Below are positions 94-54,074 of a DNA stretch of 64,000 bases, piece after piece. Position 1 is the stretch's first letter; the number at the start of each line of letters is the position of its first letter. The translations under genes and the position numbers were made by a program. The notes below the pieces were generated by a model, which ran no database searches, was not told the DNA's origin, and was given only the letters and a program-made list of their open reading frames with translations. Origin of the DNA: Marinobacterium mangrovicola (GTDB lineage Bacteria; Pseudomonadota; Gammaproteobacteria; Pseudomonadales; Balneatricaceae). The DNA is taken from NCBI RefSeq assembly GCF_004339595.1, contig NZ_SMFU01000011.1, forward strand, positions 1 through 64,000, written 5' to 3'.

Positions 94-270
94 CATCGCA
101 GCGTGAAAGAGAAACAAGGGAAAGGTTGTTTGAGCGAAGCGAGTTTCCTTTCCCGCTCTTTCAGGCGAGAAGCACAGGGAAATCGGCGCAGCCGATCAAG
201 CAGCAGGGGCGGTTTGGGATTGCCAAGGGACTTGTCCGCACAAGTCCCTTGGCTCGCCAGCAGGCGAAAC
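94..270 (+). repeat. Interspersed structured repeat, copy 1
   Basis: One of three copies in the window, here in + orientation. Four hairpins follow in order. A: outer stem GAAAGAG/CTCTTTC (105-111/156-162), inner stem GGGAAAGG/CCTTTCCC (118-125/147-154) and apical GCGAAGC (134-140). B: ATCGG/CCGAT (182-196). C: a 14-bp stem with loop CCGC (222-253). D: TCGCC/GGCGA (254-267). Linkers such as GAGAAGCACAGG and the stretch before stem C are conserved in sequence between copies. The open frame across it (84-290) is a by-product of the repeat, because the copies diverge according to base pairing rather than codons. Confidence 0.85.
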
Positions 271-17924: not shown

Positions 17925-17976
17925 TTAAGACTTATGCATGTCTAAGCTCTCCAGCGCTGCAGGCTTCTAAAGGCCG

Positions 17977-18165
17977 GTTTCGCCTGCTGGCGAGATAAGG
18001 TACTTGTACGGACAAGTACCTTATCAATCCCAAACCGCCCCTGAGGCTTGGTCGGCTGCGCCGACTTTCCTGTGCTTCTCAGCTGAAAGAGCGGGAAAGG
18101 AAACTCACCGCTTCGCGGCTCAAACAGCCTTTCCCTTGTTTCTCTTTCAGCCTGCGATGCTCGGC
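17977..18165 (-). repeat. Interspersed structured repeat, copy 2
   Basis: Minus-oriented copy with the same four hairpins. A: outer 18085-18091/18142-18148 (identical to copy 1), inner GGGAAAGG/CCTTTCCC (18093-18100/18128-18135), apical CCGCGAAGCGG. B: GTCGG/CCGAC (18051-18065) against ATCGG/CCGAT in copy 1. C: a 14-bp stem (17994-18025) with three base pairs swapped relative to copy 1, all compensated on the other arm. D: identical (17980-17993). It lies between hutD and the tannase terminator. The minus frame 17942-18211 across it resembles that of copy 1 only because of the repeat. Confidence 0.85.
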
Positions 18166-18290
18166 TTCGCCAAAGGGGATGGATCGCTGCATTAAGACGG
18201 GCAGTAGACATCGTGCTCTGCTATCAATCGGGCAGAGTAATTTCTAGTCTCGATCACCGCCTCTCTCGGAGGTAGTACAAGAGGGAAAGA

Positions 18291-18333: not shown

Positions 18334-20013
18334 TTACTCGCAGCGGAAGCTGGCTGCGCTTTCGATATCGCCACCTTCGTAGACGGCGGTTTGCGGGTAG
18401 GCGCAGAGTTTGCGGGTGCGGTTATCTGACCAGCCTTCGAACTTCTCGCCGTTGCCGGCAGCGATGCTGGCGGTGACCGCCTCGGGCTCGTCGCCGCTTT
18501 CAACCCAGCCCACCAGTTGGGTGAACAGGTCGAAGTCATCGGTGGTTGGTCCCCCGGCGCAGTGGTTCATGCCCGGCACCGGGTAGAGTTTGACGAACTT
18601 GTCCGCCTCACCCTTGTAGTTCTCGTCCAACCGGTTGTACCAGTTAACGGTATCGTTATACGAGAACACCGGGTCAGCCACGCCGTGGAAGATGATCATC
18701 TTGCCGCCGCCGCGCTGGAACTTCTTCAACTTCGGATTTTTTGCGTCCGGCGGGGTCATGAACGCCATAGCGGATTCGTTGAACTTGCCGCGGCGGGCAT
18801 CGATCATGTCGCCGTCATTGGCGATATCGAAGTCCAGCAGGAAGTTGACCAGATCCTCCGGTGTACCACCGACGGCGGTGGGTGGGGTGGTAAATACCTG
18901 TGCCAGTGAGGAGGCGCCCATCACACCGATCAGCGGATAACCGCCCCAGGGCGGGATACCGCTGGAGATCTTCCAGAAGCGCCAGTCGCCACCGGCAATG
19001 CCGGAATCCCAGGCCCAGTCGCTGTAGATTGGGTTGCCTTTACGGTCTTTCGGGCCTGCGTGGATGGTTTTAAGCACTTCGGCCTTGTCCGGGTCGATGC
19101 AGTTCTCCGTTTCACCCACGGGGCAGACGTAGTTATCGATATTGAAGGTGGCCTGGCAGGCGGCAGTATTCGATACCAGGTCATCCTTTACACCGTCCAG
19201 GGTATCGCAGGCGTCCAGCACTGCAGAGGCGACCAGCAGGCGGTCGTGATCGGTCAGCGAGGTGCGCACATCGCCGGTCAGCGAGCTGAGTTGCTGCACA
19301 TCCAGGGCATGTTGTACCGCGGCCCGCGGCAGGTTAAAGCCGGGCGCGCCGATCAGGAAACCATCGTAGGCATTGCCCAGGCGCGAAGCCGCCACCATGC
19401 CGTGACGTCCGCCATTGGAACAGCCCACTCCGTAGGAGTATTGAGGATCGTTACCGTAAAAATTATGGATGATCTGCTTGGCGATGGGGGTCAGTACCTC
19501 GACGGTTTTGTAGCCGTAAAAGGAGCGGGCCTCAGGGTCCAGGCCAAAACGGGAACCGGCGGCAAGACCGGCCGTGGCGTTCTGGGCGGCACCATCATGC
19601 CCTGCATCGGATGAGAGCACCGCATAGCCACGACCCAGCGCGGTACGCTCCTGGTTACCGCTAAGCAGAGGACCGGTGGCAGCATTTACCGAGCCATCGT
19701 TGCCGCCGTTGAACTGGTGCACAAAGTCACCGTTCCAGTCATCGGGCAGGTTCATCTGAAACCGGACCTGATAATCCTGTCCATCTTCACCCACTCGCTG
19801 TGCCGTGGTCGCATTGATCCGGCAGTGGGCGGGCAGGGTATCGGTGGCGGCGACCGCCTCCTGGGAGGTGACTTCAACGCCGATCACGCCGAGCGTTTCG
19901 GTATTGATGTCATCGCAGATCATTTGAGCGGAAGCGCCCTGGGAGATAACAGCAAGAATCGCTGCGCTCAGCGTGGCCACGCCGAGACTGCGGCTAGCAG
20001 AATTACTACTCAT
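18334..20013 (-). CDS. Tannase/feruloyl-esterase family hydrolase, paralog 1
   Basis: 559 residues. The signal peptide ends GASAQM near residue 30, so the enzyme is secreted or periplasmic. The tannase family CS-D-HC arrangement is visible: GCSNGGRHG holds the nucleophilic serine next to a cysteine, VADPVFSYNDT holds the aspartate and GMNHCAGGP holds the histidine next to a cysteine. The two cysteines form the family's disulfide. Known members split ester bonds of aromatic acids (gallates, ferulates, mono-hydroxyethyl terephthalate). Its closest relative here is the adjacent paralog (20262-21941). It has its own GAGGAT box and terminator. The exact substrate is unknown. Confidence 0.9.
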   Translation of the reverse strand: MSSNSASRSLGVATLSAAILAVISQGASAQMICDDINTETLGVIGVEVTSQEAVAATDTLPAHCRINATTAQRVGEDGQDYQVRFQMNLPDDWNGDFVHQFNGGNDGSVNAATGPLLSGNQERTALGRGYAVLSSDAGHDGAAQNATAGLAAGSRFGLDPEARSFYGYKTVEVLTPIAKQIIHNFYGNDPQYSYGVGCSNGGRHGMVAASRLGNAYDGFLIGAPGFNLPRAAVQHALDVQQLSSLTGDVRTSLTDHDRLLVASAVLDACDTLDGVKDDLVSNTAACQATFNIDNYVCPVGETENCIDPDKAEVLKTIHAGPKDRKGNPIYSDWAWDSGIAGGDWRFWKISSGIPPWGGYPLIGVMGASSLAQVFTTPPTAVGGTPEDLVNFLLDFDIANDGDMIDARRGKFNESAMAFMTPPDAKNPKLKKFQRGGGKMIIFHGVADPVFSYNDTVNWYNRLDENYKGEADKFVKLYPVPGMNHCAGGPTTDDFDLFTQLVGWVESGDEPEAVTASIAAGNGEKFEGWSDNRTRKLCAYPQTAVYEGGDIESAASFRCE

Positions 20014-20261: not shown

Positions 20262-21941
20262 CTATTGGCAGGTAAAGCTTTCTGCGCTTTCGGGATCGCC
20301 GCTGCCGTCGTACACCGCGACCTGCGGATAGGGGCAGAGCTTGCGGGTACGCACCGGTGACCAGTCTGAGAAACGCTCTCCGTTACCCTCGGCGATACTG
20401 GCGGTAACCGCCTGAGGCTCATCACCGCTTTCCACCCAATCCACCAGTCGTGTGAACAGATCGAAATCGTCGGTAGCGGGGCCGCCGGAGCAGTGGTTCA
20501 TGCCAGGTACCGGGTAGAGCTTGACGAAATGGTTCGCCTCACCCTTGTAGTTCTCGTCCAGGCGGTTGTACCAGCTGACCGTATCGTTATACGAGAAGAT
20601 CGGGTCAGAAACCCCGTGGAAGATGATCATCTTGCCGCCGCCGCGCTGGAATTTCTTCATCTTCGGGTTATCCACATCCGGTGGTGTCATAAACGCCATG
20701 GCCGACTCATGGAATTTGCCGTGGCGGGCGTTGATCAGCCGGCCGCCGTTCTCCACATCGAAATCGAGCAGGTAATCCACCAGATCGTCCCCGGTAGGGC
20801 CGACACTGGCCGGTGGTGTTTCAAACACCTGGGCCAGGCCCGATGCGCCCATAATGCCGATCAGCGGGTAGTTATCCCAGAACGGCACGCCGCTGTTGAC
20901 GCGCCAGAAGCTCCAGTTGCTGCCCGCAATACCAGCATCCCAGGACCAGTCGCTGTAAAGAGATCCGCCTTTGCGGTCCTTGGGACCTGCGTAGATTCCT
21001 TTCAGCACCTCAGCTTTTTGCGGGTCGACACAGTTTTCCGTTTCACCGACCGGGCAGACGTAGTTATCGATATTGAAGGTAGCCTGACAGGCGGCGGTAT
21101 CCGAGACCAGGCTGTCTTCCAGCCCGTCCAGCGAATCGCAGGCATGCAGCACCGCCGAGGCTACCAGCAGACGATCCTCCTGGGTCAGCGATGTGCGTAC
21201 ATCGCCATTGATGCTGTCCAGCAGCTGCACATCCATGGCCAGCTGGACGGCGGCCTTGGGCAGGTTAAAACCCGGTGCGCCCAGCAGGAATCCATCGTAG
21301 GCGTCGCCGAGGCGCGAAGCCGCCACCATGCCGTGGCGCCCGCCGTTGGAGCAGCCCACTCCGTAGGAGTAGTGCGGATCGTTCCCGTAAAAGTTATGGA
21401 TCATCTGCTTGGCGATGGGGGTCAGCACCTCCACGGTTTTGTAGCCGTAATAGGAGCGCGCCTCCGGGTCGAAACCGAACTGCGCAGCACCGGCAAGGCC
21501 GGCCTGGGGATTGGCGTTACCGCTGTGACCTGCGTCGGACGAGAGCACAGCGTAGCCCAGCCCCAGGGCCGTGCGCTCCCGGTTGCCGCCCAGCAGAGGG
21601 CCGGTAGCCGCCGATACCGAGCCATCGAGGCCGCCATTGAACTGATGCACGAAATCGCCGTTCCAGTCATCCGGTAGATTCATCTGAAAGCGAACGGCGT
21701 AATCCTTGCCATCCAGCCCTACACGCTCGGCGGTGACCGCATCGATGGAACAGTAGGCGGGCAGGGCATCGGTGGCAGCCACCGGCTGGGCCGAAGTGAC
21801 ACGAACGCCGATCACGTTCAGCGTCTCGGTGGTGACCTCGTTGCAAACCAGCTGGGCCGAAGCCCCCTGAGATGCCGCCGTCAGGATGGCCGCGCTCAGC
21901 GTGGCCAGGGCAAAACGTCTTTGCGAAGCAAAACTACTCAT
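20262..21941 (-). CDS. Tannase/feruloyl-esterase family hydrolase, paralog 2
   Basis: 559 residues, exactly the length of paralog 1 and matching it at most positions throughout by eye. The signal peptide ends GASAQL. Catalytic sites are kept: GCSNGGRHG, SDPIFSYNDT and GMNHCSGGP. Differences cluster in the N-terminal third and in the lid-like middle region (for example PFWDNYPLIG against PPWGGYPLIG), where substrate choice would be set. GAGGG precedes the ATG. The gap to paralog 1 is 248 bases and holds a hairpin and a fresh AT-rich leader, so the two are probably transcribed separately. Confidence 0.9.
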   Translation of the reverse strand: MSSFASQRRFALATLSAAILTAASQGASAQLVCNEVTTETLNVIGVRVTSAQPVAATDALPAYCSIDAVTAERVGLDGKDYAVRFQMNLPDDWNGDFVHQFNGGLDGSVSAATGPLLGGNRERTALGLGYAVLSSDAGHSGNANPQAGLAGAAQFGFDPEARSYYGYKTVEVLTPIAKQMIHNFYGNDPHYSYGVGCSNGGRHGMVAASRLGDAYDGFLLGAPGFNLPKAAVQLAMDVQLLDSINGDVRTSLTQEDRLLVASAVLHACDSLDGLEDSLVSDTAACQATFNIDNYVCPVGETENCVDPQKAEVLKGIYAGPKDRKGGSLYSDWSWDAGIAGSNWSFWRVNSGVPFWDNYPLIGIMGASGLAQVFETPPASVGPTGDDLVDYLLDFDVENGGRLINARHGKFHESAMAFMTPPDVDNPKMKKFQRGGGKMIIFHGVSDPIFSYNDTVSWYNRLDENYKGEANHFVKLYPVPGMNHCSGGPATDDFDLFTRLVDWVESGDEPQAVTASIAEGNGERFSDWSPVRTRKLCPYPQVAVYDGSGDPESAESFTCQ

Positions 21942-52771: not shown

Positions 52772-53737
52772 TTAGAGAAAACTCTGACTATCCACCGCTT
52801 GCCCGGAACCGATCAAACACGCCAACAGAATCCGTGCCTTCTTCGCATCCAGATCCTGCCCGCTGATAACGCCATTAGCGGTTAGATCGGCGAAGCTGCC
52901 CGGATATTCGTAGGCGGGATAGACGCGCCCCTGATCGCAGGCTGACGTAATTACCACCTTCATACCGCTATCGACCGCCGCTTTGATCGCTGGAAGCCAG
53001 CCGGGCGGCACATGGCCGCGGCCGAAGCCTTCGATCACCAGACCTTGCGCATTGCTGGTGCTGGCGGCGCGGATAAACAGATCCGACATACCCGAGGCTG
53101 CCTTGATCAACTGCACTACCGCCAGGGCGGGCAGGGTATCGAAACAGGCTTTGGCGGCGGTCGCAGTGCACTGGATAAATACCTCGCCCCGGTCGATGGT
53201 GCCGATCTGGCCGCCAGCGAAGCCGTCCACGTTGGAGGTGTGGACTTTGCGCACGGAACGGGGCGAGAAGATCTTTTCATTAAACACCAGCAGGGTGCCG
53301 GAGCAATCTGGCTGATCAGCGGCCGCCAGGGTGATCGCATCGCGGATATTGGCAAAAGAGTCGCTGCCGATTTCACCGGGAATCCGCTGGGAACCGGTAT
53401 TCACCACCGGCTTGTGGCTCGTAATGGCCAGTGAAAGAAAATAGCTGGTCTCCTCCAGCGTATCGGTGCCGTGGGTGATCACGACCCCGCTGATATCGGT
53501 GCGGATCAGGAAGGACTCCACCACTGATTTCAGCAGTAACAGCTTGTCGAAATCCATGGCGTTGCTGGGGATCTGAAAGGCGCTGAACACCTCCAGCTCG
53601 ACCTGATCCGATGACAGATCCTTATAGGCGCCAAGCAGCTTTTCGCCGGTAAGCTTGCCGGCAATTGAACGCCCGGTTTCCGGATCGGTGGTACAGGCGA
53701 TAGTGCCGCCGGTGGTTATTACCGCTATTTTTTTCAT
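52772..53737 (-). CDS. L-asparaginase (cytosolic type)
   Basis: 321 residues from the ATG at 53735-53737 that gives KKIAVITTGGTIACTT. An ATG four codons upstream is possible. No signal peptide, so it is cytosolic. Both catalytic threonine motifs are present: TTGGTIA near the start (T12) and THGTDTLEETSYF near residue 90. It hydrolyses L-asparagine to aspartate and ammonia. Its start lies 47 bases left of repeat copy 3, which separates it from the dsdA operon on the same strand. Confidence 0.9.
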   Translation of the reverse strand: MKKIAVITTGGTIACTTDPETGRSIAGKLTGEKLLGAYKDLSSDQVELEVFSAFQIPSNAMDFDKLLLLKSVVESFLIRTDISGVVITHGTDTLEETSYFLSLAITSHKPVVNTGSQRIPGEIGSDSFANIRDAITLAAADQPDCSGTLLVFNEKIFSPRSVRKVHTSNVDGFAGGQIGTIDRGEVFIQCTATAAKACFDTLPALAVVQLIKAASGMSDLFIRAASTSNAQGLVIEGFGRGHVPPGWLPAIKAAVDSGMKVVITSACDQGRVYPAYEYPGSFADLTANGVISGQDLDAKKARILLACLIGSGQAVDSQSFL

Positions 53738-53783
53738 GAGTTTTCTCATGTGGAAATCTTTTCGCTGCCGCGTTTAGGCGCAG

Positions 53784-53976
53784 GTTTCGCCTGCTGGCGA
53801 ATTAAGGGCTTTGATGGCAAAGCCCTTAATAATCCCAAGCCACCCCTGCCGCTTGATCGGCTGCGCCGATTTCCCTGTGCTTCTCACCTGAAAGAGAGGG
53901 ATCTCCAAACTCGCCGCTCCGCGGCTCAGACAGTCAATCCCTTTTTCCTCTTTCAGTCTGCGATGCTCGGCTGCGC
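53784..53976 (-). repeat. Interspersed structured repeat, copy 3
   Basis: Minus-oriented, between the dsdA 3' end and the asparaginase start. The architecture is the same with the most divergent stems. A: outer GAAAGAG/CTCTTTC kept (53890-53896/53948-53954), inner GGGAT/ATCCC (53898-53902/53937-53941) instead of GGGAAAGG/CCTTTCCC, apical GCCGC-GGA-GCGGC. B: ATCGG/CCGAT (53856-53870). C: a perfect 13-bp stem ATTAAGGGCTTTG (53801-53813) with loop ATGG and its complement to 53830. D: identical (53787-53800). Linkers match the other copies. Confidence 0.85.
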
Positions 53977-54074
53977 AGAAGGGGAACTACTGTCTGGCTC
54001 AGTTGGACTCGGTGTGATCGAGCCCTGTTTGTGCCTCCTAGCGTGACATGCGTTTTGGATAGCAGGCTTCGGCT

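Follow-up and report, generated by a model that had tools for sequence, protein, structure and literature searches.

The repeat that occurs three times in the window, the whole stretch of 64,000 nucleotides analysed here, belongs to a structured element that extends across the class Gammaproteobacteria and is absent from Rfam release 15, and this assignment is secure. The best explanation of the repeat, with a probability of about one half, is that it serves as an arm of a gene cassette which is exchangeable and non-autonomous. Outside the genome of the window (G000), inverted arms around exchangeable genes are well supported; within it they are seen at two loci, and pairing is weak.

Copies in the window and its genome—An earlier note on this DNA placed copies of about 180 bp at 94-270 (+), 17977-18165 (-) and 53784-53976 (-), and all three are present. 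Their extent had been drawn too short, as the true start lies 8-13 nt further upstream, at CCCCTT, and the element runs about 7 nt further downstream, to the limits given for copies 2 and 3 in Table 1. Copy 1 has lost its 5' arm, which is retained in the M. lutimaris counterpart (L046). G000, which has 4.98 Mb in 15 contigs, carries at least 40 copies, a few of them partial, which is far more than chance would give; the matches listed are 44, of which 4 are short self-complementary ones, and the copy number is a lower bound because 40 of 59 first-look candidates were scored. Copy 2 is retained at the same site in G003, with 92% identity over 3 kb, element included, and 99% identity in the element. 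Two adjacent ORFs on the same strand, 18334-20013 and 20262-21941, encode 559 aa each, and the G003 stretch beside the orthologous site matches this region at 76%, suggesting that the two may be tandem paralogues.

Table 1. Window copies with the parts of copy 2, and domains of cargo genes, located by window position or by locus.
Feature	Position or locus	Strand	Basis or remark
Copy 1	94..270	+	degenerate 5' arm of helix P1
Copy 2, complete two-domain element, 209 nt	17970..18178	-	covariance-model match
Copy 2 domain 1: P1 closing helix, conserved internal loops, hairpins A and B	18038..18178	-	alignment-derived coordinates
Copy 2 hairpin A: outer stem, covarying inner stem, covarying tip	18083..18150	-	covariation
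Copy 2 hairpin B	18051..18065	-	covariation
Copy 2 domain 2: hairpins C and D	17970..18037	-	covariation, pair counts
Copy 2 hairpin C, 14-bp stem	17994..18025	-	double changes at 10 of 13 modelled pairs, 78 copies
Copy 2 hairpin D	17980..17993	-	pair counts
Copy 3	53777..53984	-	end 27 nt upstream of the ATG of ORF 52772-53749 (-)
Cargo GIY-YIG	L070		Pfam scan
Cargo BRCT	L125		Pfam scan
Cargo HNH	L127		Pfam scan
Cargo PIN7/NYN	L128		Pfam scan
Cargo DUF4238	L129		Pfam scan
Cargo DUF6119	L131		Pfam scan
Cargo YoeB (YefM/YoeB-like)	L203		Pfam scan
Cargo DUF1493	L199		Pfam scan
Cargo M24	L207		Pfam scan
Cargo DUF4145	L211		Pfam scan

Anatomy of the element—The alignment of 78 Marinobacterium copies gives an element of about 209 nt with two domains. 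Domain 1 is closed by the long-range helix P1, in which 5' CCCCTTNNGC pairs with GC...GGGG of the linker that leads to domain 2. It has GCCGAGCATCGCAG and CGAGAAGCRCAGGG as its conserved internal loops and carries the hairpins A and B; domain 2 is formed by hairpins C and D. The four hairpins described by the earlier note are all present, but P1, a fifth helix, had been missed because the coordinates given in that note begin inside domain 1. The stem changes that the note reported are found again: three compensated pair differences in stem C between copies 1 and 2, A-T to G-C in stem B, and GGGAAAGG/CCTTTCCC to GGGAT/ATCCC in the inner stem of hairpin A.

Covariation was tested for all column pairs of the 209 well-occupied columns of the 78 copies, against a null in which columns evolve independently on a FastTree tree (60 simulations), an own analogue of R-scape and not R-scape itself. 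Eleven column pairs (49-96, 177-219, 176-220, 170-226, 8-149, 48-97, 61-71, 62-70, 129-143, 169-227 and 171-225) exceed every null value; all of them lie inside the proposed helices and pair in 77-100% of copies. The next-ranked pairs, with 0.02-0.2 expected by chance, include some outside the structure. Standard pairs fill 98.3% of 4361 pair cells against 88.2% after shuffling, double-change cells number 432 against a shuffled mean of 116, with double changes in 25 of the 56 pairs, and pairing falls to 34-48% when partners are slid by 1-3 columns. The proposal of selection on folding, with covariation above background once more copies are added, is borne out on these 78 copies. In P1, double changes occur at 8-149, 9-148 and 10-147, of which only the first is above the tree-based null, the other two having too little variation. 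Independent support for P1 comes from G200 and G217, in which domain 1 stands alone and has a greatly lengthened P1 as its closing stem; the sequence of this stem in the G200 copies (L187, L256) is unlike that in either G217 copy (L178), and the two G217 copies also differ from each other in it. Copy 2 folded alone has z = -5.0 (-5.9 for its reverse complement), and its minimum-free-energy fold contains P1, A, B, C and most of D.

Coding does not explain the element, as the earlier note had held. A whole-length open frame is found in 53 of 77 copies, but these frames are spread over all six, the best being open in 32 of the 77, and copy length modulo 3 takes every value; the coding explanation is rejected on both grounds.

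Distribution of the family—The window has no match in Rfam release 15 at gathering scores, and E-value searches of Rfam with 7 and 16 copy-bearing loci return only sub-gathering matches. No published description of the element, sequence strings included, is found in the open-access literature, a scope that leaves most subscription journals and preprints outside. An exact pattern run against 84,980 species genomes, a scan that may leave out the window's own genome, matches only Marinobacterium, with 35 of the 38 matches in M. lutimaris and 3 in M. litorale. The search of the genome and its relatives with a covariance model, as the earlier note had proposed, reaches much further: model R1 has matches in 42 of 116 family genomes (9 of 16 genera) and in 48 of 369 class genomes (42 of 272 genera), and in 14 of 398 genomes of a phylum sample, all from the same class, Gammaproteobacteria. 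Each of these tallies counts G000 too and uses stricter filters. The family extends across the class, and throughout it the loops GCCGAGCAUCGCAG, cUGUUUGAG, CGAGUUU and CGAGAAGCGCAGGGAA are constant while the stems vary, in an alignment fitted to the model.

The phage search gives no element matches. Of three plasmid searches, one gives no match and two give only short hairpin-C-like matches, and three plasmid stretches have no convincing model match (best E = 0.97). The modules of the element can occur apart: besides the solitary domain 1 of G200 and G217, a hairpin-C-like piece recurs at least 38 times in every one of seven Paraburkholderia records, where it lacks domain 1 in the two stretches examined, and occurs once in a Pseudoalteromonas plasmid (L262, L263, L264).

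Back-to-back pairs—Outside Marinobacterium the back-to-back pair is a common arrangement, and copies with a neighbour are preferentially paired in this way. When each genome is represented by its top-scoring copy, a choice made irrespective of pairing, a divergent partner lies no more than about 1.5 kb away at 33 of 67 loci, a same-direction partner at four and a convergent one at one, with none found at 29. These 67 loci represent the genomes with a locus retrieved rather than every matching genome, and leave out G000, G001 and G003. Divergent partners are present at 9 of 27 family loci (L098-L124), 19 of 29 class loci (L146-L174) and 5 of 11 further class loci (L244-L254), the rows of L119-L124 and L244-L254 being read by eye. 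Among 96 loci partly chosen for pairs, 60 neighbours within 3.5 kb comprise 46 divergent, 11 same-direction and 3 convergent cases, one of the last being an overlap of two model matches. The divergent gaps measure 17-155 bp in 32 of the 46 and 204-2021 bp in the other 14. The 5' ends of divergent arms point inward, and the interval between them is a short spacer or holds one to few genes. G000 has only six neighbour pairs within 4 kb (two divergent, four same-direction), so most of its copies are solo. By crude ORF calls, the 70 usable of 77 copies lie between convergent genes in 42 cases, between forward genes in 13, reverse genes in 11 and divergent genes in 4, and 19 copies are additionally overlapped by a long chance-type ORF.

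Exchange at fixed sites—Four related genomes (G042, G043, G052 and G053) carry different genes between arms at the same sites. At locus I the left flank and both arms are common to all four, and the cargo is a BRCT protein in G043 and G052, an HNH protein in G042 and, in G053, a small ORF that by eye is lipoprotein-like. On the right side, three genomes match directly in the flank and G042 only beyond an extra arm. At locus II both flanks match in all four, around four different cargos (L131, L199, L200, L201); these flanks are also found in G040, G041, G045 and G051, with no model match between them in G041, G045 and G051. The inter-arm length at locus III is 798 bp in G053, 1712 bp in G052 and 150 bp in G043, with one arm in G042. 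Locus IV has a pair with a 160-bp spacer in G053, a pair with 1.1 kb in G052 and one arm in G042, while G043 (L215) has only a short palindrome built from both outer arm ends, which looks like an internal deletion that may have lost the middle between the hairpin C stems.

Exchange is also seen in Marinobacterium. At one locus the cargo of G000 is a retron (L088) and that of M. lutimaris comprises three genes (L069/L066), and the flanks outside the arm cluster match on either side. The three genes encode a 514-aa P-loop-like and a membrane-like protein, both so described by eye, and an Mrr-like protein, whose Mrr_cat score of 18.5 bits is under the cut-off of 21. In M. litorale, the pair that encloses GIY-YIG (L070) has one flank only in common with this locus, at 87% over about 1.07 kb.

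The arms themselves turn over at fixed sites. At 16 sites where G000 and G003 match in both flanks, the elements are 96.5-99.5% identical in six cases and 83.4-93.6% in ten, and the flanks 85.6-98.8%; gaps are left uncounted, and the flank figure for copy 2 is 92%. At 11 of the 16, the G003 copy is closer to some other G000 copy than to the one at the corresponding site, at two of them by only about one point. Five more sites with one flank matched show 93.3 to 98.5%. The site of copy 3 in M. lutimaris holds a different copy, 84.3% identical, between flanks of 89.9 and 92.3%. No clean empty site was found; the best candidate is the site of the pair at 939 kb in G053, absent in G043, where the long right flank matches, as do 30 bp on the other side, and the junction is unrelated sequence. 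No consistent flanking direct repeat is present in 46 divergent pairs, in which 4-8 nt shared strings lie at scattered offsets (outer ends approximate, no shuffle control).

Cargo genes—The loci hold gene cassettes, and their defence content is a tendency. In G000 the divergent pair at C2:142760-145402, outside the window, encloses a 626-aa protein (L088 15055-16932) that scores 623 bits with PADLOC RT-Protease_XI (retron type XI) and matches Pfam RVT_1 and Trypsin_2. The protein inside the second divergent pair, of 634 aa, matches nothing in Pfam or PADLOC. The cargo sample comes from loci selected for their pairs, and the scan comprises 18 proteins, with several ORFs outside it, for example at L175, L177, L153, L201, L202, L205 and L208. 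Other than for the retron, PADLOC gives weak support or none: scores are 50 bits for the GIY-YIG protein (PD-T4-3), 27 for DUF4145 (PD-T7-4), 23 for HNH (ZorE) and 21 for BRCT (PDC-S48), and two further proteins score 14-15 bits. Many cargos have no PADLOC match (L089, L128, L131, L199, L200, L207, L149, L091, L203 and one L211 protein), so the label of defence cassette is not established. The identity of the element as a retron ncRNA is not supported: a retron reverse transcriptase lies in one of the two G000 divergent pairs, the other scanned paired intervals carry other genes, and at least 38 other copy positions in G000 lack a demonstrated retron gene.

Alternative readings—The best of the alternatives, itself unlikely, is a structured RNA family, regulatory or of the 3'-UTR type, which spreads as a repeat and whose pairs around genes are by-products of insertion. 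The bias to one folded strand, the class-wide loops of the model-fitted alignment and the occurrence of domain 1 alone in G200 and G217 would suit such a family, which however predicts neither the excess of divergent pairs nor the differing cargo between fixed arms. Orientation is moreover unbiased among co-directional neighbours (13 forward, 11 reverse, by the crude ORFs), and no promoter-like site is present in 500 bases around copy 2 in a search with the sigma-70 consensus only.

Also unlikely, and slightly more so, is the reading that copies are passive markers, lying in insertion-tolerant gaps between convergent genes, while cargo is exchanged by homologous recombination through conserved flanks. 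The position of 42 of the 70 usable copies and the conserved flanks of exchanged loci accord with this, and ordinary homologous recombination through the flanks could exchange the cargo. It does not account for mirror-image arms in many genera, with an interval of 17-155 bp in most divergent pairs, nor for the ten of 16 sites at which arms are only 83-94% identical and flanks 86-97%.

RNA and cruciform DNA had been offered as equals by the earlier note, and this parity does not hold. G.T cells number 81 against 17 A.C cells, and inferred gains 48 against 13, although helix selection by RNA rules, under which G.U is permitted, may have inflated the excess. Equal tolerance of both mismatches would be expected of a cruciform, so one folded strand is favoured, and a double-stranded cruciform or palindromic protein-binding site of the nucleoid or gyrase type is very improbable, even though both strands fold well. 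The folding strand seems to be the as-written one, which reads outward from each pair, and the folded molecule may be RNA or ssDNA, with a lean to RNA.

A terminator or insulator, which would fence cargo transcription from its neighbours, is highly improbable: many copies do lie between convergent genes and arms do read outward from the cargo, but the sole terminator-like match in copy 2 is a weak 5-bp one at the tip of hairpin A, two stronger ones are outside copy 2, and copy 3 lies 27 nt upstream of a same-strand start codon.

REPINs are hairpin repeats that often occur in inverted pairs, and the pairs described here, with their short spacers, resemble them. REP repeats with RAYT transposases (PMC2817692) are, like the element, chromosomal hairpin repeats, but the element is far larger, two-domain and class-wide. 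Movement of REPIN-like units by a REP-associated (Y1/HUH) transposase is the least credible alternative, for although Y1_Tnp (PF01797) matches occur in the element-bearing G000 (with stops), G001, G003, G013, G040, G045 (below cut-off), G074 and G122, there are none in the five element-rich genomes G041, G042, G043, G052 and G053, the domain is present in G039, G044, G047, G050 and G051, which have no model match, and no element lies at 23 Y1_Tnp loci. A present-day RAYT/Y1 partner is largely refuted by this distribution; an ancestral or distant HUH enzyme is possible.

Proposed mechanism and related systems—In the cassette reading, the arms would either move the unit or supply the homology for replacement of a resident cassette by an incoming one, and a separate enzyme would help in trans. 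We infer a causal role of the arms in the exchange, with folded RNA or ssDNA as the recognised form. The conserved loops and the strand bias suggest a folded single strand as the form bound by a protein, for which outward-read RNA would be likelier than ssDNA. Solo Marinobacterium copies, including the three in the window, would be single arms left by exchange or available for it. A wider reading, which is tentative and falls well short of even odds, is that of a class-wide, uncatalogued mobile cassette system, in which a trans-acting enzyme would recognise inverted arms of about 200 nt in folded single-stranded form (RNA or ssDNA) and which may shuffle single defence, toxin-antitoxin and uncharacterised genes among fixed chromosomal sites, in the manner of integrons but with neither attC arrays nor a linked integrase. 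If this is right, model R1 would be a signature for finding exchangeable cassettes across Gammaproteobacteria and would reach candidate defence genes possibly overlooked by ordinary island detection, and the question raised is what recognises the folded strand on both sides of the cassette. On a modest reading, there is still a strongly covarying, class-wide structured repeat that is missing from Rfam release 15.

Integron cassettes are small genes, often of toxin-antitoxin or defence type, that are moved as units through a folded single strand and have one attC per unit. The units described here differ in having two inverted arms and dispersed sites. The integron integrase model TIGR02249 is above cut-off in 8 of 15 element-bearing genomes and not above it in G001, G043, G045, G052, G053, G074 and G122. 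None of eight integrase loci of about 4 kb, a span that would miss a distant array, contains an element, and integron linkage is rejected for the genomes and short loci tested. G000 itself has an integron integrase well above cut-off (L265, C1:594124-595071), with no element in its locus of about 4 kb.

Intergenic repeats of P. fluorescens, described in passages of PMC2718517 as MITE-like and hairpin-forming, have a tail-repeat-tail gene bias, which the convergent-gene excess found here (42 of 70) resembles; two of them, R178 (101 bp) and R200 (320 bp), are likened to the element by that description only and not by sequence. TIMEs are Tn3-derived inverted-repeat miniature elements with 38-bp Tn3 ends (PMC4133298). 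MITEs and TIMEs share with the element a non-autonomous nature, inverted ends, empty and cargo forms and variable cores, but their arms differ from those described here, which have about 200 nt and a covarying fold. Neither target-site duplication (46 pairs) nor partner transposase is found here, the 18 cargo proteins having no transposase or recombinase match in Pfam. The 32 divergent pairs with 17-155 bp spacers are short non-autonomous units with inverted repeats, as MITEs are; in Marinobacterium the copies are mostly solo.

Some loci have more complex arrangements. At L179 (G292 C76) three same-direction copies lie 1.6-2 kb apart, and the intervals are toxin-antitoxin-like by eye (RelE/HigA-like, VapC/PIN-like and HicB-like). 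The densest cluster observed, at L246 (G861 C1), has five copies within 1.3 kb in the orientation -, -, +, -, +. Long Marinobacterium copies (L028, L040, L003 and others) reach about 450 bp and have palindromes near both ends, CCACCTCC..GGAGGTGG and CCACCTGC..GCAGGTGG.
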